From positions 15,657,148-15,721,147 of the forward strand of contig NC_049993.1 in the NCBI RefSeq assembly GCF_000003815.2: DNA of 64,000 nucleotides, written 5' to 3'. Of this stretch, positions 4,357 to 64,000 are shown in pieces. Each line of letters begins with the position of its first letter. Position 1 is the stretch's first letter. A model generated the notes under the pieces. That model ran no database searches and was not told the origin of the DNA. It saw nothing but the letters and a program-made list of their open reading frames with translations. The DNA comes from Branchiostoma floridae. Taxonomy: Eukaryota > Chordata > Leptocardii > Amphioxiformes > Branchiostomatidae. Both the position numbers and the translations under genes were made by a program.

Positions 4357-4360
4357 TACC

Positions 4361-4541
4361 GCCACTGGGTTATGTAATGAGTTAGTGACGTCACTGCCTT
4401 GACTGTCAGGGATCCCATGATCCTCTTCGCTCTCTTCTATCATGGCTGTACTTGAGTGAGCATCACGGAATAAACGCCTCTTCCAATCAAGTTGCATCGG
4501 CTCCTATGATTCACTATCGCGTCCCCTTGTCAATGTTGGCG
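4361..4541 (+). repeat. 5' LTR of the TRIM-like element
   Basis: It holds a perfect palindromic CRE (TGACGTCA, 4386-4393) and a downstream AATAAA (4469-4474), arranged as promoter then poly(A) signal as in a functional LTR. It is identical to 5636-5816. Confidence 0.8.
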
Positions 4542-5635
4542 TGGTGTGCAGCGGCTGGGAAACGATACCCAGGCCCAAACCCGAACTTTGCGCAGGGGAG
4601 ATCGCACTCTGAGTGGACGGGAAGCCACTAGCAAATGAGGATGTAGGTCAACAATGGCGCCATCACGTGTGCAGGAGGGGATCTGGTCTTTAGCTCCTCG
4701 GCGGAGCCCTTGGTCGGAAGTTATGCGTGACTACACCTCATCCTTGTGCCAGCTTCGCTGCAGCCCCCAGAGGTCTCATAGAAGTCGCAGGGAGTAGTAC
4801 TCGGCTTACCTATCCGGCAAAACCCGAATCTTCCCAGTTTCCCCGGCCATGTGAGTACAACGTCAAAATTCACCATCCGCCATGTTTCTTTCGTTCAACC
4901 TTCAACAACGTTCTACCCGATTTGACGCGGACCGCCCACGGACTTTCCCACCTACGAACTTCGCTCGACAAACTTCGTCTGATCACCGCTGAACTGTACC
5001 AGCTCAGAAGAATATTATCTACACTGAACTGTGTACCAGCCAAGAGGCACATTATGCTCCAGCCGAGAAGAACATCGCTTGTGAACGCTGAACTGTAACT
5101 GTTAACACCACCGGCCAAGAGAAGCATCGCATGTCACAGAACTTTGACAGCCACGAACTTTGCCAAAACAAAACTCTGCTTCTACCCAGTATTTTTTTCT
5201 TTTTCTGCAGATAATCGTTATTGTATTCGTCCCCATTTTATGTTAGCTAGACATTGTTATCTCACAGAAAAACATTGACAATCTATTTCAGTTCAACTGT
5301 TACCTTCATTTGTCCGTAATGTATTCACAATCTGATGTTACATGTTATCTCTCATATTGTGTTTAACAAACCTTACCTCATTAGTCAACAATTTTCTTCA
5401 CAGATTTTGTAATGTTATATCTGTCTTTTCATTAGATCTAGATTTCCCAAGTATTGTTATGGGGGTTATTTCATGGATTCACTATTATAGCACACTTTGC
5501 AGATTTATTGTATTTATACCATTTAATTACGAAAAGTAGACAACAGGCTCTGTTTTCTGACATTACATTTTTGTTACCACATGATAGTTTGGTAAAAAGG
5601 AGAAAGAGAGAAATAAGAAGATAAAGAGAAATCAC

Positions 5636-5816
5636 GCCACTGGGTTATGTAATGAGTTAGTGACGTCACTGCCTTGACTGTCAGGGATCCCATGATCCTC
5701 TTCGCTCTCTTCTATCATGGCTGTACTTGAGTGAGCATCACGGAATAAACGCCTCTTCCAATCAAGTTGCATCGGCTCCTATGATTCACTATCGCGTCCC
5801 CTTGTCAATGTTGGCG
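5636..5816 (+). repeat. 3' LTR of the TRIM-like element
   Basis: Exact copy of 4361-4541, with the CRE at 5661-5668 and AATAAA at 5744-5749. It is preceded by the purine tract and followed by the TACC duplication. Confidence 0.8.
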
Positions 5817-6047
5817 TACCAAGAAAGGGCTTTCAATGGTTGAATGCCTTGTTTATATTTACTCTCTCACAAGCAAGCGCCGACTGTTGTAACGTTATAC
5901 ACCCCACCCCGACTTGTCCTTGAACTCGTTTTAGGGACTCGTTTGAGTGAATGCTGAAACCTTTAACTTTGACCTTTGCACGTTGCACGTGTAACATGAA
6001 CTTTGGCCATACATTCAGTGCTGTGTGGACACGGAAGTCACAACAAC

Positions 6048-9346: not shown

Positions 9347-10738
9347 TCATTGGTGCTTCTTTCTCACATGCCTAAGAAGAGTGGCTTTTAGACTTGCCTT
9401 GTAGTCACACTCATTACAACTGTAGGGTCTCTCACCGGTGTGACATCTCATGTGTCTTATAAGAGTGGCCTTATCAACTGTCCTGTAGTCACATTCCTCG
9501 CATTTGTAGGTTTTCACACCAGCGTGGTACTTCATATGTCTCTCAAAGTGATACTTTCGGAGGGTCTGATAGTCACAAAGTTCACAGCTGTAAGGTTCCT
9601 GGCTGCCATGTTTTTTCATATGCTCAACGAGAGAACCTTTCAATGAGGCCTGATAATGACATTCGTTGCACTTAAACGGTTTATCGCCACTGTGTGTCCT
9701 CATGTGATAGACAAGTCTGGACTTATACGATGCCCTGTAACCACATTCCCCACAAATGAAAGATTTTCCTCGCATGTGACGTTGTCTATGCTTAGAGAAC
9801 TTGTGTGCGTACGATGTTGTGAACCCACACGAGTTGCATACGTAGCGTTTACAAACAATTCCCAAGTTCTTATTAGAGAGAGGAGACATCCTGTTCTCAG
9901 AATCCTGGTCCTGAGTCGCGATCGGTTCACAAGAAACTGTTTCCTCAAAATTCACTTTTAGACTTTGTTTATTTCCGCTGTTAACCAACCCAGTCATGCA
10001 ATCTCTATCCTGATCCAGAGAAATTTGTCCGATTTGATCATCCTCGGACTCATGGCTATCCATCTTTACATGTACATCATCATAGTCTGGAGTCCATTCA
10101 GAAGACATAGGCTTCTCTATGCGAGAATCACCCATTGGATTAATTGTATCTAGTTCCTGCATACTGAAAGTGGGAGTGTCAACGTTGAGCTCGTCATGAC
10201 AAGCTCTACCTGCTTCATCCTCACTCATCATAGCAGCCTCTTCTTCTTTAATGCCACAGTCTACTGCGGTACTCATTTGTACCATGGAACTATCAGATGA
10301 AGGAAGTGTACTTGTCAGCTGTACCTGAACTGCATTTAGCACAAGCTCCTTGTTATGTGTGAGTACTTCATTGCTGGTATTGTTGATTTCCTTGCTGCTC
10401 TCAATGTCTAGTCCAGAACTTTGCAGTGAGGCGTCAGGAGTGGATGTCTCTGTTAGCAATGTTTTTGCATACGCCTTTGGAATAGTCTTTTGCATAATGA
10501 TTGACTCCTGTTCTTTTCCAGGAATGCTTTCTTCTGTCTTCCTTTCCAACTGACCATACTCCTCTGACATCATGTCCCGAAGGATACTGACCAGCCTGTC
10601 CTTGATGCTGTTCTCTTTGTCCAGGTTTTGAATTCTTCTGTTGAGTTCAAACATCAGCTCCTCCATGTTCAGTCTGGGAAGGACTGCTATGGTCACCTCC
10701 TGCGAGAGGCCACAGATGAACTCCTGTTGTCTGGACAT
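9347..10738 (-). CDS. C2H2 zinc-finger protein, six fingers (ZNF copy 1)
   Basis: Predicted nuclear DNA-binding protein of 463 aa. Residues 1-70 form a helical, leucine-rich N-terminal domain (RQQEFICGLSQEVTIAVLPR...NMEELMFELNRRIQNLDKE) nearly identical to the neighbouring paralog. An acidic, Ser/Thr-rich linker of about 220 residues follows. From about residue 299 come six C2H2 fingers with CxxC...HxxxH spacing and TGE/SGDKP-type linkers, of the CGYRAS/CDYRT style common in invertebrate finger arrays. The ATG at 10738 is preferred because CTCCAG|CATG just upstream fits a splice acceptor that the paralog shares; in-frame upstream codons would then be intron. A 5' non-coding exon is expected upstream. 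It forms a tandem pair with 12873-14324. DNA target and function are unknown. Confidence 0.9.
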   Translation of the reverse strand: MSRQQEFICGLSQEVTIAVLPRLNMEELMFELNRRIQNLDKENSIKDRLVSILRDMMSEEYGQLERKTEESIPGKEQESIIMQKTIPKAYAKTLLTETSTPDASLQSSGLDIESSKEINNTSNEVLTHNKELVLNAVQVQLTSTLPSSDSSMVQMSTAVDCGIKEEEAAMMSEDEAGRACHDELNVDTPTFSMQELDTINPMGDSRIEKPMSSEWTPDYDDVHVKMDSHESEDDQIGQISLDQDRDCMTGLVNSGNKQSLKVNFEETVSCEPIATQDQDSENRMSPLSNKNLGIVCKRYVCNSCGFTTSYAHKFSKHRQRHMRGKSFICGECGYRASYKSRLVYHMRTHSGDKPFKCNECHYQASLKGSLVEHMKKHGSQEPYSCELCDYQTLRKYHFERHMKYHAGVKTYKCEECDYRTVDKATLIRHMRCHTGERPYSCNECDYKASLKATLLRHVRKKHQ

Positions 10739-11128
10739 GCTGGAGAACGTCATTGACAAAAGAAATACGCATATATGATTAATAAACGTTATAGTAAATA
10801 CATTGTCGAAATTATGGACAGTTCTATTCTTGTGCTTGAAGTGCTAGAGCTGGTGCTTCCTATTCAAAATTGTACGTATCCTTGGTTGGTTAATTAATGA
10901 TGACAGTTTTTGCAAATTCTTGGGAAAAAACAAATAGTTAACAATAAAAACATTGTGTACTCTAGTTTAAACTCTAAACTGTAACTTGTTGGGTTCGACG
11001 GTGTAATGCTTCTACCGAAAGCAAAAGGTTATTCCAGCGACAGAAAGCTTCGTCTACCCTGAAAAGAACCTCGTAAGGGATAACGGGACGCCCCCCCCCC
11101 CACTACTTAAAAGAACTAGCGTTAACGT
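10739..11128 (-). promoter_or_regulatory. 5' flank or first intron of ZNF copy 1
   Basis: Holds the candidate acceptor next to 10738 and sequence shared with the 5' flank of the paralog (GGCGACAGAAAGCTTCATCTG-like block at about 11037; GACGCCCCCC tract at about 11088). The shared block shows that the duplication included upstream DNA. The first exon could not be placed. Confidence 0.5.
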
Positions 11129-12872: not shown

Positions 12873-14324
12873 TCATTTACATTGGTGCCTGGTTCTCATA
12901 TGCCTGACAAGGCTACCCTTTTCAGTTGCCTTGTAGTTACACTCTTGACAACTGTAGGGTCTCTCACCGGTGTGACGCCTCCTGTGTTTTGTAAGATCGC
13001 TCTTATCAACAGCACTGTAGTCACATTCCTCACATTTATAGGGTTTTACACCAGCGTGGTACTTCATATGTCTTTTAATGTGTGACCAGTCGTAGGTCTT
13101 GTATTCACAAAGGTCACAGCAGTAGGGTTCCTCGTCACTGTGTTTTTTCATATGCTTGACAAGCGAACTTTTAAGTGACGCCTGATAATGACATTGGTTG
13201 CACTTGAACAGTTTCTCGCCAGTGTGTGTTCTCATGTGTTCGACAAGTCTGGTCTTATTTGATGCCCTATAACCACATTCACCGCACATGAATGGTTTTT
13301 CTTCTGCCTTGAAACATTGCCTATGATTGGAGATTTTTTGTGCATTCGATGTTTTACGCCTGCGGACATCACACATTTCTTCAGAGTTCTTATTAGAAAG
13401 AAGGGGCGCCATGTTCTTACAAGCCCGGTGTGGGGTCGGTTTACAAGAAGCAGGAAGCGTCTCCTCAATATTCACTGTTTGACATTTTTTATGCTCACCA
13501 TTAATCAAACCAATCTCTCTGTCATCAGTACAACATTCATTCTGATTCCAGTTGGATGGTAGAGAACTGGTATCATCCTCGGGCACAAGGCATTCCGTCT
13601 TTATACATGTATGTATTTCAGTGTGGTCTGAAGTTGGTTCACAAAAGGCGGAGGCAACGGCTACTTCCTGACAGGGTTTATCATCTTGCACAGGCTTCTT
13701 TGTGTAAGTATTACTTGTTGAGTTAACTCCATCGAGGACTTGTGTGCTAAAAGTAAGAGTGTCCATGTTAAGCTCATCATGATAGCCTCTACCTGCACCA
13801 TCCTCAGTTGCCAAAGCATCATCTTCTCTTTTAATGCACTCTACTGTGGTATTCATCTGTGTCAGGGTGGTATTGGATGGAGGGATTGTAGCTGTCAGTT
13901 GTGCCTGAACTGCATTTAGCGAGAGCTCCTTTGTATGCGTGAACACTTCATTGCTGGTATCATTGTTTTCCTTGCTGTTCACAAGGTCTGGACCAGAACT
14001 TTGCTGTGAGGCATCAGGAGTTGATGTCTCTGTTGACATCATTTCTGCATATGCCGTTGAAATACTAGTATCCCTTTGAATGATAATTGTCTCCTGGTCT
14101 TTTCCAGGCATGCTTATTTCCGCCTTCCTTTCCCACTGGCGATATTCCTCCAACATCACGTCCCTAAGGATACTGACCAGCCTGTCCTTGATGCTGCTCT
14201 CTTTGTCCAGGTTTTGGATCCTTCTGTTGAGTTCAAACATCAGTTCCTCCATGTTCAGTCTGGGGAGGACTGCTATGGTCACCTCTTGTGAGAGGCCACA
14301 GATGAATTCTTGTTGTCTGGTCAT
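12873..14324 (-). CDS. C2H2 zinc-finger protein, five intact fingers (ZNF copy 2)
   Basis: Paralog of 9347-10738, 483 aa. The first 54 residues after the start differ from copy 1 at only two positions near the start and middle. The linker has diverged and is longer. The region equal to finger 1 of copy 1 is degenerate: it has lost the second zinc Cys and ends in Cys instead of His. Five good fingers follow (FMCGECGYRASNKTRL, FKCNQCHYQASLK, YCCDLCEYKTYDW, YKCEECDYSAVDK, YSCQECNYKATEK), ending RTRHQCK. The ATG at 14324 is chosen because TCCTTTAG|CATG fits an acceptor; the longer upstream frame would be intron. Predicted to be a nuclear DNA-binding protein; target unknown. Confidence 0.9.
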   Translation of the reverse strand: MTRQQEFICGLSQEVTIAVLPRLNMEELMFELNRRIQNLDKESSIKDRLVSILRDVMLEEYRQWERKAEISMPGKDQETIIIQRDTSISTAYAEMMSTETSTPDASQQSSGPDLVNSKENNDTSNEVFTHTKELSLNAVQAQLTATIPPSNTTLTQMNTTVECIKREDDALATEDGAGRGYHDELNMDTLTFSTQVLDGVNSTSNTYTKKPVQDDKPCQEVAVASAFCEPTSDHTEIHTCIKTECLVPEDDTSSLPSNWNQNECCTDDREIGLINGEHKKCQTVNIEETLPASCKPTPHRACKNMAPLLSNKNSEEMCDVRRRKTSNAQKISNHRQCFKAEEKPFMCGECGYRASNKTRLVEHMRTHTGEKLFKCNQCHYQASLKSSLVKHMKKHSDEEPYCCDLCEYKTYDWSHIKRHMKYHAGVKPYKCEECDYSAVDKSDLTKHRRRHTGERPYSCQECNYKATEKGSLVRHMRTRHQCK

Positions 14325-15180
14325 GCTAAAGGACACGAAGGTCAAAAGAAATACGTTGTATGAAATGAACGTTAAACTCGAGACTGGGAAGCAAAAATTG
14401 TGGACGATTGTATTCTTCAAAATTCTCCCAAACCAACTATCACTGTTAGCTGACCACAGAGTAAAGGAGCGGTTGATGAGGAGCAGTTCCAGAGAGTACG
14501 GACTCCTACCAAACCGAAGAAGTCTAGAGTCTACTAAGAGAAGAAGTCTAAGAGAAGAAGTCTACTCTAGGAGAAGAAGTCTACTCTACTCTACTCTGCT
14601 TACTAGTAATCAAAAGTGTTGGAGCTGATGTTTCCCACGCCAAATCGTACGTATCATTTAGCTAATTGAACTCCTACCGTGTTAAGCTCCTACCGGAAGC
14701 GAAAGATTAACCCGGCGACAGAAAGCTTCATCTGCCCTGAAAAGAGACTCTAGAGCCTGGTAAAGTGACGCCCCCCTCCCCACAATCGCATCATTAGCGT
14801 CCATTAAAAAAGGCCAATCTATTGCAAATAATACAACATTTTGAAAATGTTCTATTGATAAAGCCCATCCTTACCTCTTTGATAACCATGCCCAATGGGG
14901 AAGGTGAGAAGAAATAGTCTGCTTGATGCCCGAAGAAGTCTCAAGTCCGGCAACAAAATGGAATGGCTGACCCACAAAACTCGACTTCTCGAACACAGGT
15001 CAGAGGTCATTAGGGGTCAGGGACACTGATTACCCAACTAATTACACGATATCAAGGCAGACTACAGTGAGAGTGTTGTGATGGAAGGATTTATGGTTAA
15101 CAAAAAATCAAAAAAGATACCCTTAGCTAGGGGGATAATGCATTCTTTCTGCATATTCCATTCTGATATTAGGCAAATAA
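14325..15180 (-). promoter_or_regulatory. 5' flank of ZNF copy 2
   Basis: Shares blocks with the copy 1 flank (14715-14790 with 11037-11100; 14990-15180 with 11640-11820). A local tandem repeat of GAAGAAGTCTACTCTA type sits at 14510-14600. The 5' exon could not be placed. Confidence 0.5.
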
Positions 15181-37800: not shown

Positions 37801-40800
37801 GCTCTTCTGCTAATGTGTCAATAGCGTGACAGACAAAATTTTCCACTTCCACAAGAACCTTGACTTTTTAAAACAAATTCTAAACTTTCAAAAAGTCAAG
37901 AAATGAGGACAATAAAACACTGAACCATTTTTATGATAATACATTTACCAATCTGGTCGGTTCCCCTCCTCCATAGCAAGCGGGCAGTCGCTTTTCTCGT
38001 TGTCAGGACAGACCAGAAGAACAGGTTTCTCTCAGCTACACCGTCTTCGTCATCATCATCTTCATCGTCATTATCATTATCATCTTCACTGTCATTCCTG
38101 AAGTCTCCTTCTGTCATTCTTTTGGTAAAGGAAAGTAAAGTACCATGTTAAGTTAAGGTGCGTTTAGAAAATCTAAAAAGTATTGATATCACATATGACG
38201 CAATGGAGAAATAGTGATCAGAAGAAAGTCTAGAACAAAATTACCCCCTGCAGTTACAAGAAAAATGTTTGAAAACCCAAACTTATACAATTTCAACCCG
38301 ACATCTAGAGCTCTCTATCCAAAGCTCATGAACACATGTACATCAAAGCATGTCCTAAACAACGGATACAAGACACATTGTCCACAACATACAGACTGTC
38401 GGACCTTAATATTACTTTCAAGCCTTATACCTCAGCATTGTTTTCATCTGGCTCTCCAGAAGTCTGCCACAGATGACAGCATCCACGTCAGATAGGTCCA
38501 GCAGCTCTCGGTGCTGCTCCGGCTGCCGGCTGTCCTTCTCTTCTTCTATCAGTCTGTTCAGAGTCGTCGCGCTACCGTCATTAGCCATGTCATACAGAGC
38601 CTTTTGGTAGGAATCATATGACATAAGGTTAGCATGCATACAAGTTAATCTATTTTGATATTTTACATAGTTCACAAAGCTAACATGTTTACAACACCGT
38701 CATTGGGTTATGTAAATGAGTTAGTGACGTCACTGCCTTGACCGTGTTAGGAATACCATGATCCTCTTCACTCTCTTCAACTATGGCTGAAGTCGAATAA
38801 ACACACTTGATTGAAGGACTCATTGACTCATTCATCCGACGTCTTTTGGTCGATGTTGATGCACCAAGAACGATAGCGAATAACGAATAACACCTGGCCA
38901 GTGAGCCATCAGCTAAGGATTGTAACGGAAAATTGATAATTTCCGTTTGCATCATAAAGTTGATACTGATGTTGTTAGGATTATGAGATCCCGTTACACC
39001 TATAATTTTTATTTGACCGATTATTGATGCTCAGGCTTTTCCTTCGATAATCCAAGTTAGAGTAATAGAGGCTTGTGATTATTCCACAGGATTGCTGACC
39101 TACCCGAGCTGTATGCGGTGTCATTTTCTGTAAGCACCGAATAAAATCACCGAGTGAGCAATCGAACGCGGGTATTCTATAATGTTTTATGTCCTATATA
39201 TATATATCTCATTCTTATTATACTATTCACCACTTGTGGTACTTCTGTGAGGTTACTATGAAATGGGGCCTTTTGATTACGCAACGTCTTTAATATGATT
39301 ATATCATAATTTGTTATATAAACTCACCTTAATGTAGAGTTCCGTAAGCCTCTGCTTGGTGAGGAATGTCGGTAGGTACATCCCGTTGTCCAACAGCATC
39401 TCCACCACCTCAGCGTTATCTTGCAGCAGCGCCATGACCATATACGGGTCTTTGTTCACACTCTGCAAAAATGTCCATTGTTCCCTTATGATTTATTTAT
39501 TGATTATGAAGAAAGCTAGACGTCTCTGTGATCTTGATTAGAAGATACATTGATGGAATGTAAGAAAGGTACGGTTGATAAACGAATATTTACTGTTTTA
39601 ATAATTTCCATGCTTGTGCTATACAATTGCATGAACGGTCGTAGAAACTTCAAATGCCGCAACTGACTTCACTATCATTTATAGACTACTTCGTGCTCTC
39701 TATGTGTAGTTCCTTTTGGGCTCTATGTTATTTAAGTGGATTATAATGAGTCACCCTGAAGCCCACTTTTGTGCAGATCTCAATAAAACTTATCTTTACA
39801 TGGCATTAAAAAGGCGGAGAATAACCTACAGATTATTTTATACAGACGAAATAATATTTTTGCCTATAGGTTACATACTTTGCTCTCTCCGCGCGGTTTT
39901 AAGATGCATGAGTGAATTTTTCATAAATCGCACGATAATGCGGGCACCACTGTACTACAAACAGTGCTCTCTGTATGTAAGGGTTTTCAGAACAAAACCT
40001 GCAGTTTCCGTATCCGGTTCCGTGTGAAGATCTCGTCCTGCCAGGCGCTGCCGCTCGTTTTCCAGTCCAGCGCCAGGTCCAACTGGTCTTCCGGTGACGC
40101 AATTTCCGCTTCCGGGTGGAAACACATGCACAGAAAACAGTCTATTAGTATATAACATCATTGATCTCAAGGAAAATAGATATTGATACGAAGGGGGGTA
40201 CACCATGCAATATCTAAATGATCAAGAACCCAAAATGATATCTATCACCTGTGATGTGTCACATTGACTGACAGAGATACATGTGTCAAACATACCTTTT
40301 AGGAGCGCCCGCAGTAAACCTTCGTCAATGTCCATGGCGTCAGACTCATTCAGACGCACCACTGTCACCTGAGTGAATAATAAAAAGACGCTACACATCA
40401 ACTTTGACTCACTGCATTGTCTTCCCTAACTGTTTTATTTCAAGATAAGAAAAATGATACAAGGACAACAGCAAAAAGGGAATAATTTGATGACTCAGAG
40501 GATGGTCATATCAAAATGAGGATGACCTTTGCTTGCTGTGCTGTTTTCAGGGCTGCAATGTTGATGAACTTATAAGTTAACAACAATTTCCGGGATTCTA
40601 TTTAGCAAATGATATACTAGTAATAGCAGAAATCAAAGCCGTGACCTCAATATTTTGTGCTATCAAGCCTAGCTAGCCATTTCCCATTCACTCCGGCGTT
40701 AAAGATAAGGGTTGGTAATCACAGGATGGCAAACACAACTGCACTCGGAAGAAAATGGCTCTTGGTGGCAAATTTGCAGATTTTAGCACACCAACGCACC

Positions 40801-43800: not shown

Positions 43801-46800
43801 TTTAACTCAGAACTTAAATCTCAGGTCCCTTCAGTGCCCAAATTTACCCAGCAGCCACAGAGTGCGCCAGGGGGGCAAGGTGTGGTCACGCAAATACAAA
43901 AAGCCCCTACCCGACAAAGCCCGTTTTTAACAACTGTGACCAAGACCCTGTTCTATGTCAGACCATCTCACCTTCTGCCCCTGCAGCCTGTGCCTGTTGT
44001 GCACGTTTCCCCATGTGGTGATCCCGACCAGGTTGACGGCGGGATGTCCGGAGTCGGACAGACAGTTCGCCCCGCCCCAGATCGCTTCCCCCACGTACTT
44101 GGACACGCCGCGGTGTAAGCCGGCAGTGATGATCCACGCTCCTGACAAGGACACAACATTTTAGCAAAAAAATGTTCAACTTGAAAAAAAAAAAACATAA
44201 TATCAAGCCAAACCTGTCGATGTGCATGTCAAGCAATGTCCTAGGTAAGTAATGGCCAAATATCACCAGTCAATCACGTGACCACCTACAATAAAGGGAC
44301 ACCTTGATTGGCTGTTAAATGCACTGCCAATAATAACAGGGCGCTATCTGATTGGCTAATGTTCAGTCAGCGCTAACACAGCGAGAAGGATGAATCACAC
44401 ACCGGTGCACCAGGGTCATTGTTTTGCTTGACAAGCGGTTGGCATGATAGAATATAAATAGGATATTAAACTTATTCAATCAAGAATTTAGGTACATCTC
44501 ATTCCTTTCGATTTCTTTAGATATCGCAATGTCGTTACTTACAACACTCAGGACGGCACCCTTAGTTTCTTAGTTCGTTATATACACATTATGTACTAAC
44601 TTTTTTACATCTAAGAGGCTGTGTACCCTATATATTTAATTCGAAAAAAGTTTCAATAGAATCATGGCAAATACAGGACGATTTGAGCTTTCATGAAATA
44701 AACAAAAGTTCAAACAAACAAACAAATAAAATGCTTACCTGTGCTAAGAGCTGCATTAGCCAGACCCTTGTTAACTTTCTTAAGCCGTTCTTTCAAGACA
44801 AACTTGGCGTCTCCACCGACCACGGATATGATCAAATTCGGGGGTTTCATGTCCCAGCATGACGTCATTAACTCCCATAAGACTTCAGGGTCAATGTCCT
44901 TCGTCACTCGTACGTACTAGGAAAGAGAAAATGGTTAATTTGTCCTCCTGTCTTTATGTACACGTTACATACATCCACTCCATAAATTAATTTCAAGATA
45001 CTTAGTTTTTATATTAATATATTTCTATGAGGAGAGTCATACCTATCACTGCTAATGTATTACATAATATTATGAACGTATTGAACTATATTGACTTAAT
45101 TCCAACTCAAGAACTTGGACACATGATACTTATCATCGAGTATTAAAAGACGAAGGTCGATACAGACTTCTATTAGAACGTAGTGACGTAGTGTATACTG
45201 AGTACAAGGGTCATCAGCTTTGCCAGGATGTGGTAGAGACCTCCACTCTAGCTTGTTCAGTCACCAAAGATGCCGACCATACCAACACACATCGTTTCTA
45301 TAAGACCGACGGAGGCCAATGATAATGTTTGGCTTCTGAATATAGTTTCTGTCTTGGCAATAGATCACAGTTTCTGTCATGGCATGTATGATTAATGAAT
45401 ATGAAGCGGTGTACCGAAAGTGCGAAAAGGAACGAAAAGATCGGATAGGAACGAAGTATGAAGCAACTTGAAATAAAATCAATGGTAATGTAAGGCAACG
45501 GTAAACTGTGATCGGCAAATGCATATGAAACGGGCTTTATTTTGGCATTTTGCGGCTTGCTCCACGAAATTCCTATAGCCCCAATGGTTCAATGGAGGAA
45601 TGGATATTGATGAGACCTATCTATGCATATCTATGCTCATCTACTTGTTAATGTGGTTATTACATTCCTTAGAATATCCATATTACATTTATATTATAAA
45701 ATTTCACAAGAAGGAATGGATTATGTCGAGAACGATTGCGCATATTTTATCATAAAAAGCCATGCTATGTGGATATAGTTGTTTAAAAAATGCAATGCTA
45801 GCAAAGTTACAAGTATATGTATTGCACAATTTGTAAGAATTTGACCTTAGAGAAATATAGGTCGCATGTTCGAACCCAGGGAAGTCGACGATCGGAAGTT
45901 CGAGCCCAGCATGTTGGGAATTATTTTTCCTTCCTTTTTTTTTCACACTTTCATTAATATTAATACAACGCCTTAAATTTGTTTTGCAACAAGGACATCT
46001 AAACCCGGCATTGGGATTTTTTTGTCATCAGCGAGGGCCTGATGTCGGTCGCAAGAGGCAGAAATTTATTTGTATTGAATATGACGGAAAATTGTTGACA
46101 GAAATTGTATTTCCCAATATCCTTTGCACAAATTCCTCACGTTGGCACCTTTCTTCCCGCCAAAATGATGAATACTCATGGTACAACTTGATGAAATCTC
46201 TTTGGTACAATGTATATATGTCTATCCTTTCACAGCTTTTCTTTCGTTGTGAACGAGCGAGAAGATATGTCTCCAGTCTCCAGAAAACCATGTTGTTGGC
46301 CCTGTTGAAAGGAGCTGTCATGCTCGTGGAGCAGCAGTTTATTAGCATATCTTTCCTGACCGGATTTCGCGGGTCATTTGCATGCGGGGCTGCCCTCTAG
46401 GGAGAATAAAAGCCACCCAAATACAACAACAACGTTACAATCTTGCCTCATCCTGAAAATGTATAATAATCGATATTTATCTACCACCCACTGAATTTTA
46501 GTCCTTACTTTCTTATCTCAGTTCCGTTTCTTTGTATTTCGCAGATCTTCAAAGAATAATTTAGCCACACAAAAACAACAGCCTGAAACAGCGCTGTAAA
46601 AATTTGATATTGTCAAATTCTCGGTAAAATAAAACACGTTTCATATGCTTCTAACGCCCACAGTACCGATTCCTTATATTCTCATTGATTTTATTTAAGT
46701 TTGCTTCATACTCCGTTCCTTTTCGTTCCTTTTCGTTCCTTTTCGTTCCTTTTCGTTCCTTTTCGTTCCTTTTCGTTCCTTTTCGTTCCTTTTCGTTCCT

Positions 46801-50112: not shown

Positions 50113-51560
50113 GGGTCTACCGAAAGTGCGAAAAGGAACGAAAAGGAACGAAAAGGAACGAAAAGGAACGAAATGGAACGAAAAGGAACGAAAAGGAAAG
50201 AAAAGGAACGAAAAGGAACGAAAAGGAAAACGTGTTTTATTTTACCGAGAATTTGACAATATCAAATTTTTACAGCGCTGTTTCAGGCTGTTGTTTTTGT
50301 GTGGCTAAATTATTCTTTGAAGATCTGCGAAATACAAAGAAACGGAACTGAGATAAGAAAGTAAGGACTAAAATTCAGTGGGTGGTAGATAAATATCGAT
50401 TATTATACATTTTCAGGATGAGGCAAGATTGTAACGTTGTTGTTGTATTTGGGTGGCTTTTATTCTCCCTAGAGGGCAGCCCCGCATGCAAATGACCCGC
50501 GAAATCCGGTCAGGAAAGATATGCTAATAAACTGCTGCTCCACGAGCATGACAGCTCCTTTCAACAGGGCCAACAACATGGTTTTCTGGAGACTGGAGAC
50601 ATATCTTCTCGCTCGTTCACAACGAAAGAAAAGCTGTGAAAGGATAGACATATATACATTGTACCAAAGAGATTTCATCAAGTTGTACCATGAGTATTCA
50701 TCATTTTGGCGGGAAGAAAGGTGCCAACGTGAGGAATTTGTGCAAAGGATATTGGGAAATACAATTTCTGTCAACAATTTTCCGTCATATTCAATACAAA
50801 TAAATTTCTGCCTCTTGCGACCGACATCAGGCCCTCGCTGATGACAAAAAATCCCAATGCCGGGTTTAGATGTCCTGGTTGCAAAACAAATTTAAGGCGT
50901 TGTATTAATATTAATGAAAGTGTGAAAAAAAAGGAAGGAAAAATAATTCCCAACATGCTGGGCTCGACCTTCCGATCGTCGACTTCCCTGGGTTCGAACA
51001 TGCGACCTATATTTCTCTAAGGTCAAGTTCTTACAAATTGTGCAATACATATACTTGTAACTTTGCTAGCATTGCATTTTTTAAACAACTATATCCACAT
51101 AGCATGGCTTTTTATGATAAAATATGCACAATCGTTCTCGACATAATCCATTTCTTCTTGTGAAATTTTATAATATAAATGTAATATGGATATTCTAAGG
51201 AATGTTATAACCACATTAACAAGTAGATGAGCATAGATATGCATAGATAGGTCTCATCAATATCCATTCCTCCATTGAACCATTGGGGCTATAGGAATTT
51301 CGTGGAGCAAGCCGCAAAATGCCAAAGTAAAGCCCGTTTCATATGCATTTGCCGATCACAGTTTACCATTGCCTTACATTACCATTGATTTTATTTCAAG
51401 TTGCTTCATACTTCGTTCCTATCCGATCTTTTCGTTCCTTTTCGCTCCTTTTCGCTCCTTTTCGTTCCTTTTCGTTCCTTTTCGTTCCTTTTCGTTCCTT
51501 TTCGTTCCTTTTCGTTCCTTTTCGTTCCTTTTCGTTCCTTTTCGCACTTTCGGTACACCG
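50113..51560. mobile_element. DNA transposon copy 2, inverted relative to copy 1
   Basis: A 1,448-bp copy in reverse orientation, with long stretches almost identical to copy 1. It starts GGGTCTACCGAAAG and ends CTTTCGGTACACCG. The 10-mer arrays differ in number from copy 1 (about 10 and 13 units). The candidate target duplication is imperfect (CTTAGCGG at 50105-50112, CTTACGGG at 51561-51568). The 106-codon minus-strand frame of copy 1 recurs intact at 50521-50841 on the plus strand. Confidence 0.85.
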
Positions 51561-59927: not shown

Positions 59928-60585
59928 TCTGCTCATGTTTCTACGTGGATAGTGTTCATTACCAAGGACGGGTCATGTTTGTGCGTAGATAGTGTTCAGT
60001 ACCAGGGGCAGGTCATGTTTGTGTGTGGATAGTGTTCAGCACCAGAGACAGGTCATGTTTGTGTGTGGATAGTGTTCAGTACAAGTGTGTGGATAGCGTT
60101 CAGTACCAGGGACAGGTAATGTTTGTGTGTGGATAGTGTTCAGCACCAGAGACAGGTCATGTTTGTGTGTGGATAGTGTTCAGCACCAGAGGCAGGTCAT
60201 GTTTGTGTGTGGATAGTGTTCAGTACAAGTGTGTGGATAGCGTTCAGTACCAGGGACAGGTAATGTTTGTGTGTGGATAGTGTTCAGCACCAGAGACAGG
60301 TCATGTCTGTGTGTGGATAGTGTTCAGCACCAGAGACAGGTCATGTTTGTGTGTGGATAGTTTTCAGCACCAAGGACAGGTCATGTTTGTGTGTGGATAG
60401 TGTTCAGTACCAGGGGCAGGGCATGTTTGTGTGTGGATAGTTTTCAGCACCAAGGACAGGTCATGTTTGTGTGTGGATAGTGTTCAGTACCAGGGGCAGA
60501 TCATGTTTGTGTGTGGATAGTGTCCAGTACCAAAGACAAGTCATGTTTGTGTGTGGATAGTGTTCAGTACCAGGGACAGGCCATA
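59928..60585. repeat. 40-bp minisatellite, about 16 units
   Basis: The unit contains CATGTTTGTGTGTGGATAG then TGTTCAGCACCAGAGACAGGT. Two shorter variant units (GTACAAGTGTGTGGATAGCG) recur in the same order, indicating higher-order duplication. Confidence 0.95.
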
Positions 60586-61848: not shown

Positions 61849-64000
61849 TCATAGACTGACAAGAGTGTCTCTGAGTTGTTCGGTACTGTGCATAGCTGAG
61901 TGGTACCAGAAGTTGTAGACTCCGGCCTTCATTTTCTCGGCCACGGCGAGGACCGTACAGAAGTCGCCCTCCAGTTTGAGTGACAGGTCGTTCCTGATCC
62001 TCTTCAGACTGGAAATCTTCAGAGGCTGCTGCCCTCTCTCCCTGCAAAGGCAGAGGGAAATGCAATGCTTGCCAACAACTGTTTGCTATTACTGTAAATG
62101 CAGAAACTTTTGCGGTAGTTTAATGTTCGCGACTTTTAAAACCACTGCAAACATTTTTCCATTGCAGCAAGATACTACAGTGCATGGCGCTACGGCAAAC
62201 TTAAAACCACTGCCAAAAGTCCTTTTTCACGTTACTGGGAAATTAAATCCCCGCGAACTTAGATGCATTTACAGTATTCTAAAACGTAATTTTATCTGAG
62301 ACGGTACTGTGCATCAGTGGCCCCCGCCAAAAGTTCTACATAGTTTTTTTATGTGGTACCGGATGTGCTCTCGAAACCAGGTTCACTTACGTCTCTGTTT
62401 CCAGGTACTTGATGAGGGCGAGGGCCTTTCGCTCCAACATACGACAGAAGTTCTCGATGTACGCCTCACGTACGCCACAGGATGGGTGGAGCTGGAACAC
62501 CTGGGAAATAAAGGAACACATACATGAGTGAAACGCCTAAAAAATAACAGAACACATACATGGGTGGAACATATATGAGTGGTACACCTGAGCGATAAAG
62601 GAACACATACATGAGTGGCAAACCTGGGAGATAAAGAAATGCACACATGGGTAGAACACCTGGGAAATAAAAGAACACATACATGGGTGGAACATATATG
62701 AGTGGAACACCTGAGAGATAAAGGAACACATACATGAGTGGCAAACCTGGGAGATAAAGAAATGCACACATGGATAGAACACCTGGGAAATAAAAGAACA
62801 CATACATGGGTGGAACATATATGAGTGGAACACCTGAGAGATAAAGGAACACATACATGAGTGGCAAACCTGGGAGATAAAGAAATGCACACATGGGTAG
62901 AACACCTGAGAGATAACAGAACACATACATGGGTTGAACATATATTTATATGAGTGGTACACCTGAGCGATAAAGGAACACATACATGAGTGGCAAACCT
63001 GGGAGATAAAGAAATGCACACATGGGTAGAACACCTGGGAAATAAAAGAACACATACATGGGTGGAACATATATGAGTGGTACACCTGAGCGATAAAGGA
63101 ACACATACATGAGTGGCAAACCTGGGAGATAAAGAAATGCACACATGGGTAGAACACCTGGGAAATAAAAGTACACATACATGGGTGGAACATATATGAG
63201 TGGTACGCCTAAGCAATAAAGGAACACATACATGAGTGGCAAACCTGGGAGATAAAGAAATGCACACATGGGTAGAACACCTGGGAAATAAAAGAACACA
63301 TACATGGGTGGAACATATATGAGTGGTACGCCTAACCGATAAAGGAACACATACATGAGTGGCAAACTAGGAAAATAAAGATACACATGGGTAGAACACC
63401 TGAGAGATAACAGAACACATACGTGGGTGAAACATACATGTATATGAGTGGAACACCTGAGAGATAAAGGGACGCATACATGAGTGGCAAACTTGGAAGA
63501 TAAAGATACACATGGGTGGAACACCTGAGAGACAATAGAACACAAACATGGGTGGAACATATATAAGTGGAACACCTGAGAGATAAAGGAACACATACAA
63601 AGATGGTTTGACACACCTGGATAAAAGAACACATACTAATGGATATGGAGCACTTTTTAGGGAACACATATGTGAGTGCAAATGGAACACTTGGGAGATA
63701 CATGTAAAGATCAACAAACATATGTGAGAATGTTTACTCTATTTCTACAATCGTATACAAGTATAACAGTGCCTAGCCTTATGACTAATGATGCATTCTA
63801 CACTGTGTTTTCCATGTTTAATTCGCCTAGAAATCCTATTATTTTTCAGCATAAGTCTTATTTTTGGATCACTTGTATCACCGCTGAAAACAAAACATGA
63901 GAGAAAACCAAAGTATGATGCATGAAACAATTGCTTACCTCTGCCAGAAATGTTTGAACAAAGGACTCATCTGTATCCACAAGCTCAAATACACTCCTGG
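61849..64000 (-). CDS. 3' end of an unrecognised gene, last three exons (partial)
   Basis: Exon 63939-64000 continues beyond the window: VFELVDTDESFVQTFLAE, donor GAG|GTAAGC. Exon 62391-62500: acceptor TTTCCCAG|GTG, VFQLHPSCGVREAYIENF, RKALALIKYLETE, donor AC|GTAAGT, phase 2. Last exon 61849-62041: acceptor TTTGCAG|G, KISSLKRIRNDLSLKLEG, FCTVLAVAEKMKAGVYNF, then TGA at 61849. About 121 residues, all phases compatible, GC-rich coding against AT-rich introns. The protein is helical and soluble-looking; I do not recognise the family. Confidence 0.8.
62091..62275. mobile_element. MITE in the last intron of the partial gene
   Basis: A 185-bp unit, ACTGTAAATGCAGAAACTTT to GATGCATTTACAGT, the same family as 54968-55179. 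A possible ATT direct repeat flanks it. Confidence 0.8.
62501..63690. repeat. 123-bp minisatellite in an intron, abutting the splice acceptor
   Basis: About nine units of 123 bp, each made of three roughly 41-bp subunits (GGAACACATACATGAGTGGC, AAATGCACACATGGGTAGAA, AACATATATGAGTGGTACAC). On the gene strand the subunits contain TTTATTTCCCAGGTGTTC or close variants, the same words as the real acceptor at 62501/62500. The long frames here (for example 62383-63267 minus) come from the repeat. Confidence 0.95.

Follow-up and report, generated by a model that had tools for sequence, protein, structure and literature searches.

The Troyka long terminal repeat (LTR) retrotransposons are said to have been first reported by Kapitonov and Jurka in 2008, from Branchiostoma and Nematostella. 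According to a later account (Kojima 2025, PMC12440569), the lineage is characterised by CG...CG LTR termini and 3-bp target-site duplications, with CGCCA at the start of 573 of 603 LTRs and TGGCG at the end of 522 of 603; its LTRs measure 100-400 bp and its interiors 1,553-7,691 bp, its hosts include three species of Amphioxiformes, and 70 of its elements are non-autonomous, with sea urchins accounting for 62 of these. The same lineage appears as Kuafuorterviruses in a second publication, which states that it was first noticed in the Branchiostoma floridae genome and lists B. floridae Troyka elements among its members (PMC11673190). Here we describe an element of 1,457 bp lying in a 64,000-nucleotide stretch of B. 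floridae DNA (NC_049993.1, positions 15,657,148 to 15,721,147; hereafter the window), which is almost certainly a non-autonomous LTR retrotransposon of the Troyka lineage that was inserted recently.

The element consists of two LTRs of identical sequence and a non-coding interior (Table 1). The same 183 bases are found at 4360-4542 and 5635-5817, one shared flanking base being included in this figure. The interior opens with TGG and closes in a purine-rich tract, a composition that 0.9% of the 43-mers of the window equal in purines or pyrimidines, and the GAAATCA ending of this tract is conserved in 14/14 full copies of the family. The longest open frame within the element has 134 amino acids, and this frame, the one scanned, gave no Pfam match. 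A captured RNA gene was not found in the interior, where six Rfam matches all fell under their gathering scores; ARAGORN returned no tRNA in the window, and a single scan of viral contigs gave no match to an exact 21-base LTR string. The AATAAA signal, which is also present in the aligned LTR of a sister family and in a single LTR located elsewhere in the window, and the TGACGTCA palindrome, a CRE-type motif, are consistent, as sequence features, with transcription driven by the LTR. The two identical LTRs, the TGG start, the terminal purine tract and the lack of a coding region described in the initial annotation of this stretch, made from the letters alone, are all borne out, the last in that no recognisable coding region was found.

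Table 1. Features of the element and of the single LTR at 38.7 kb (positions in the window).
Feature	Position	Strand	Basis or remark
Left target-site duplication copy, TAC	4357..4359	+	Reading of the flank and tested insertions
5' LTR, 182 bp, CGCCA...TGGCG	4360..4541	+	Equal to 3' LTR; edges common to the genome copies
TGACGTCA palindrome in 5' LTR	4386..4393	+	Also in the single LTR and the aligned sister-family LTR
AATAAA polyadenylation-type signal, 5' LTR	4469..4474	+	Repeated in the 3' LTR at 5744-5749
Interior, non-coding, 1,093 bp	4542..5634	+	About 85-100% identity with full-length copies elsewhere in the genome
Putative primer binding site	4542..4559	+	Complement of the tRNA-Leu 3' end except for an inserted T and a second inserted C
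Polypurine tract, GAAATCA end abutting the 3' LTR	5592..5634	+	38/43 purines
3' LTR, 182 bp	5635..5816	+	Sequence equal to 5' LTR
Right target-site duplication copy, TAC	5817..5819	+	Reading of the flank and tested insertions
Single LTR, older, diverged, CGTCA...TGATG	38698..38861	+	CAC flanks at 38695-38697 and 38862-38864

The genome (513,431,437 bases in 431 contigs) was searched with window positions 4357-4545, and 40 of the 51 candidate matches were scored, so the counts obtained are lower bounds. Twenty-eight of these 40 matches pair into at least 14 LTR-interior-LTR elements, distributed over ten contigs, and the remaining 12 are single or truncated LTRs. The copies form a family whose LTRs range from 179 to 206 bp. 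The two LTRs of a copy show no substitutions in seven of the 14 copies and two at most in the others (one copy has four gap columns in addition), while the other full copies differ from that of the window by up to 16% in the LTR and up to 15% in the interior. Since LTRs are nearly identical within a copy and diverge to 16% between copies, the full copies are, judged by their sequences, recent and independent insertions of a diversified family, and the description of a recent, small, non-autonomous LTR retrotransposon is upheld.

A sister family, with LTRs of 173-175 bp and about 75% similarity over parts of the interior, is represented by at least 15 LTR pairs among 40 scored matches; in the nine that were examined, LTR-LTR substitutions are absent from five and never exceed two. 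It has to be considered whether the mini-element is an internally deleted derivative of an autonomous Troyka, retaining gag remnants, rather than a long-standing independent mini-family, a possibility that is compatible with its assignment to Troyka and to which we give a real, though minor, chance. In its favour, five of the published Troyka internal portions are internally deleted derivatives (PMC12440569), and the first ~250 bp of the interior are common to both families. Against it, the longest frame of the element lacks a Pfam match, and the examined copies of two related families, all of 1.33-1.50 kb with similar leader and tail, indicate that the short form has existed for long enough to diversify.

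The identification as Troyka is carried by the edges of the element and by its target-site duplications. Among the 40 scored matches, 30 start at query base 4, that is, window position 4360, the C of CGCCA; 16 end at query base 185, the G of TGGCG at window position 4541, six end one base further, and 15 continue into the interior up to the end of the query. Thus, the 181-bp LTR bounded by GCCA...GGCG that had been annotated is one base off at its boundaries, and genome copies give 182 bp and CGCCA...TGGCG. Duplications were tested in 31 insertions, namely the 14 full copies, nine copies of the sister family, seven single LTRs (that of the window included) and one 943-bp relative, six truncated LTRs and six of the 15 sister-family pairs being left out of the count. 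A 3-bp duplication together with the CG-edged frame was found in 30/31, with three bases agreeing at random at a rate of 1.8%. All 14 full copies have CGCCA...TGGCG LTRs and a 3-bp duplication (TAC, CAG, CCC, CTG, ATT, GTA, CCG, CTT, CTG, TAG, CAA, TAG, TAA and CTG), as do the nine examined copies of the sister family (9/9); the duplication is also present in the 943-bp relative (1/1) and in six of the seven testable single LTRs, and five of these seven conserve the exact termini.

These data bear directly on the 4-bp NACC duplication of the initial annotation and on a reading of the element as a miniature Gypsy, BEL or Copia element whose ends had drifted from TG...CA. Both insertions in the window can indeed be read with 4 bp (TACC and CACC), as the base following the duplication is a C in both cases and equals the first base of the LTR. 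However, the GCCA...GGCG frame with 4 bp accounts for 3/31 tested insertions (the two of the window and one other), and the duplications vary from copy to copy (CAG, CCC, CTG, ATT and GTA among others), so the NACC pattern is a product of chance and the drifted-element explanation, refuted by this test, is left with a very low probability. Still less credible is an element of the DIRS-like type, moved by a tyrosine recombinase, in which ACC would be an invariant core and not a true target duplication: ACC does adjoin both ends of both window copies, but other copies have unrelated and varied triplets at each side, which refutes such an insertion, and the layout of LTR, primer site and purine tract is the standard one. 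That a 182-bp sequence was simply duplicated in tandem at this site, giving the two identical repeats 1.28 kb apart without any mobile element, has a practically negligible likelihood and is refuted by the 14 dispersed copies on ten contigs, each with a 3-bp duplication of its own. Apart from these readings, an extended target motif, CAAGAA, was considered and rejected; it lies 3' of both window insertions and in 0/18 other rows bearing a duplication.

The departure of the LTR ends from TG...CA is therefore real, but it is the normal signature of Troyka and not as unusual as had been suggested, and the novelty attributed to the element was likewise overstated, its termini and duplication being those of a lineage reportedly known from Branchiostoma since 2008. 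A related single LTR is present in the window; its start lies one base before the annotated 38699 and its duplication is CAC, not CACC. It is identical to the LTR of the element at 119 of 161 aligned bases, with 24 gap columns, and among the 40 scored matches it has no second copy of high identity, the runner-up reaching 89% over 92 bp.

As for priming, the interior starts with TGGTGTGCAGCGGCTGGG in 14/14 full copies of the window family, and with TGGTGGCAGCGGCTGGG in the sister family (9/9) and in one truncated copy of the window family. The tRNA-Leu 3' end, queried as the human sequence, is matched without mismatch at 12 genomic sites. Six were inspected, of which five are tRNA-Leu (AAG or TAG) genes by ARAGORN; at the remaining one, a 24-base complement of tRNA-Leu comes directly after a 145-bp LTR of Troyka type (CGCCA...TGACG). 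The primer site of the sister family fits tRNA-Leu over 12 bases, and a tRNA-Ser primer, read from the terminal TGGCG, was dropped on this account. A pattern joining the LTR end to the tRNA-Leu primer site gave 20 exact and 18 one-mismatch junctions, with the backwards control giving none in forward and two in reverse orientation; since this pattern selects for a tRNA-Leu primer, it is uninformative on the frequency of other primers. The exact junctions correspond to 15 of the sister family, the truncated window-family copy and four others, upstream of which a CGCCA start was located at 178 bp and 162 bp (L076 and L080), at 280 bp (L078) or not at all (L074). Among the one-mismatch junctions, eight terminate in GCGT.

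Taken together, these sequence resemblances make tRNA-Leu the likely primer of the window family. The match to a tRNA 3' end that had been anticipated at 4542-4559 thus exists as a resemblance to the tRNA-Leu complement, with two extra bases. One of the insertions, of a single base and situated five bases from the primer 3' end, is present in 14/14 window-family copies and 0/9 of the sister family. In the textbook cycle, the tRNA is the template for the primer site on one of the two DNA strands of every new copy, and reversion to the tRNA sequence would accordingly be expected in many copies; the insertion is hard to reconcile with a primer site rewritten in every cycle. A more speculative proposal, which we regard as improbable, is that amphioxus has undergone a radiation of very small, tRNA-Leu-primed Troyka parasites below the published sizes, in which retention of the insertion reflects either a lack of primer-site rewriting or a different primer. 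If this were true, retention in 14/14 copies would mean that Troyka reverse transcription leaves the primer site unrewritten by the tRNA, or that another primer is used.

Several observations weigh against the reading of the element as a non-autonomous Troyka. One single LTR of the seven (L011) is without a duplication, and another (L015) also carries a 16-bp direct repeat in its flanks, which disqualifies the site as a clean empty one; the terminal bases are changed in two single LTRs (L034 and that of the window); the window-family primer site has the two extra bases mentioned above; and an autonomous Troyka partner was not found in a thin search that covered a few frames near the four other junctions and two mid-pieces.

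In that search, one frame was scanned in the stretch downstream of a junction (L075) and gave no hits, being the sole scanned frame possibly inside an element. The L077 downstream stretch lies outside its 943-bp element, and the three frames scanned there are thus uninformative; in two more stretches (L079 and L081) the reading was confined to open frames. The mid-pieces belong to LTR pairs with another Troyka LTR, spanning 5.19 kb (L082, G000 C1:21426300-21428000) and 4.35 kb (L084, C2:9963900-9965100), and contain a 54-bp minisatellite and no pol, with 31.6 units in the former. In the latter, one frame of the minisatellite is open for 400 amino acids with an 18-amino-acid unit, and its two Pfam matches are both under the curated cut-offs. 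These pairs may likewise be non-autonomous. The 943-bp Troyka relative (L083, G000 C12:18565759-18566701) has two identical copies of another Troyka LTR, a CAG duplication, a primer site of the tRNA-Leu type and an interior of 587 bp, below the published Troyka range; its total length is within the size limit of terminal-repeat retrotransposons in miniature (TRIMs). Independently of these, a reverse transcriptase of RVT_1 type, probably from a long interspersed nuclear element, lies at 134-1477 of the window.

From the anatomy of the element we infer a cycle in which the 5' LTR would drive an RNA ending at the polyadenylation signal of the 3' LTR. Since the element is devoid of recognisable coding sequence, the proteins would be needed in trans, and Gag, reverse transcriptase and integrase could be supplied by an autonomous Troyka. 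Minus-strand synthesis would be primed by tRNA-Leu directly after the LTR and the plus strand by the purine tract, and the Troyka integrase would then insert the copy, generating the CG...CG ends and the 3-bp target duplication.

Other features of the window include two similar C2H2 zinc-finger genes arranged in tandem on the minus strand (9347-10843 and 12873-14561), a 1.35-kb inverted repeat with 96% identity (45422-46775 and 50129-51445), which may represent two mobile elements or the arms of a palindrome, and a 123-bp tandem array of ~9 units with long minus-strand open frames (62493-63599). Three Rfam matches to mir-2060, an amphioxus microRNA, occur 144 and 160 bp apart at 60117-60512, within tandem repeats whose periods are 40 and 144 bp, and this annotation may represent a repeat unit. 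Along with the gene content, these matches point to Branchiostoma as the host.

Compared with known systems, the element is set apart from Metaviridae/Gypsy, BEL and Copia, which have TG...CA termini and duplications of 4-6 bp. Its odd ends characterise a lineage that has only recently been set apart from Gypsy, and a single chance C can disguise a 3-bp duplication as one of 4 bp. With TRIMs, as described in reports on bivalves (PMC6934838) and ants (PMC3532108), it shares two short LTRs within 100-250 bp, a primer binding site, a polypurine tract and the absence of coding sequence, but this label, used initially, is overstated, since 1,457 bp exceeds the limit of <1,000 bp quoted in PMC6934838; the Troyka ends and the 3-bp duplication are further differences. 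The Kuafuorterviruses, the same lineage, were described from reverse transcriptase proteins, and the term 'non-autonomous' is absent from the text of PMC11673190. With Troyka, as described in PMC12440569, it has in common the CGCCA...TGGCG ends, the 3-bp duplication, an LTR length within 100-400 bp, an amphioxus host and the existence of non-autonomous forms. It differs in having no Gag-Pol, which in Troyka comprises a reverse transcriptase of the Troyka clade and a CX2CX8-10HX4C finger and is without a GPF/Y, and in its 1,093-bp interior, below 1,553-7,691 bp, which is a reported range and not a definition. The terms 'primer' and 'tRNA' are absent from the text of that account. Thus, set against published descriptions, as distinct from Repbase or supplement entries, this is a new non-autonomous member of Troyka, and what it adds are amphioxus mini-elements with interiors under the published range, the naming of tRNA-Leu as their likely primer, and a one-base primer-site insertion in all 14 full copies.
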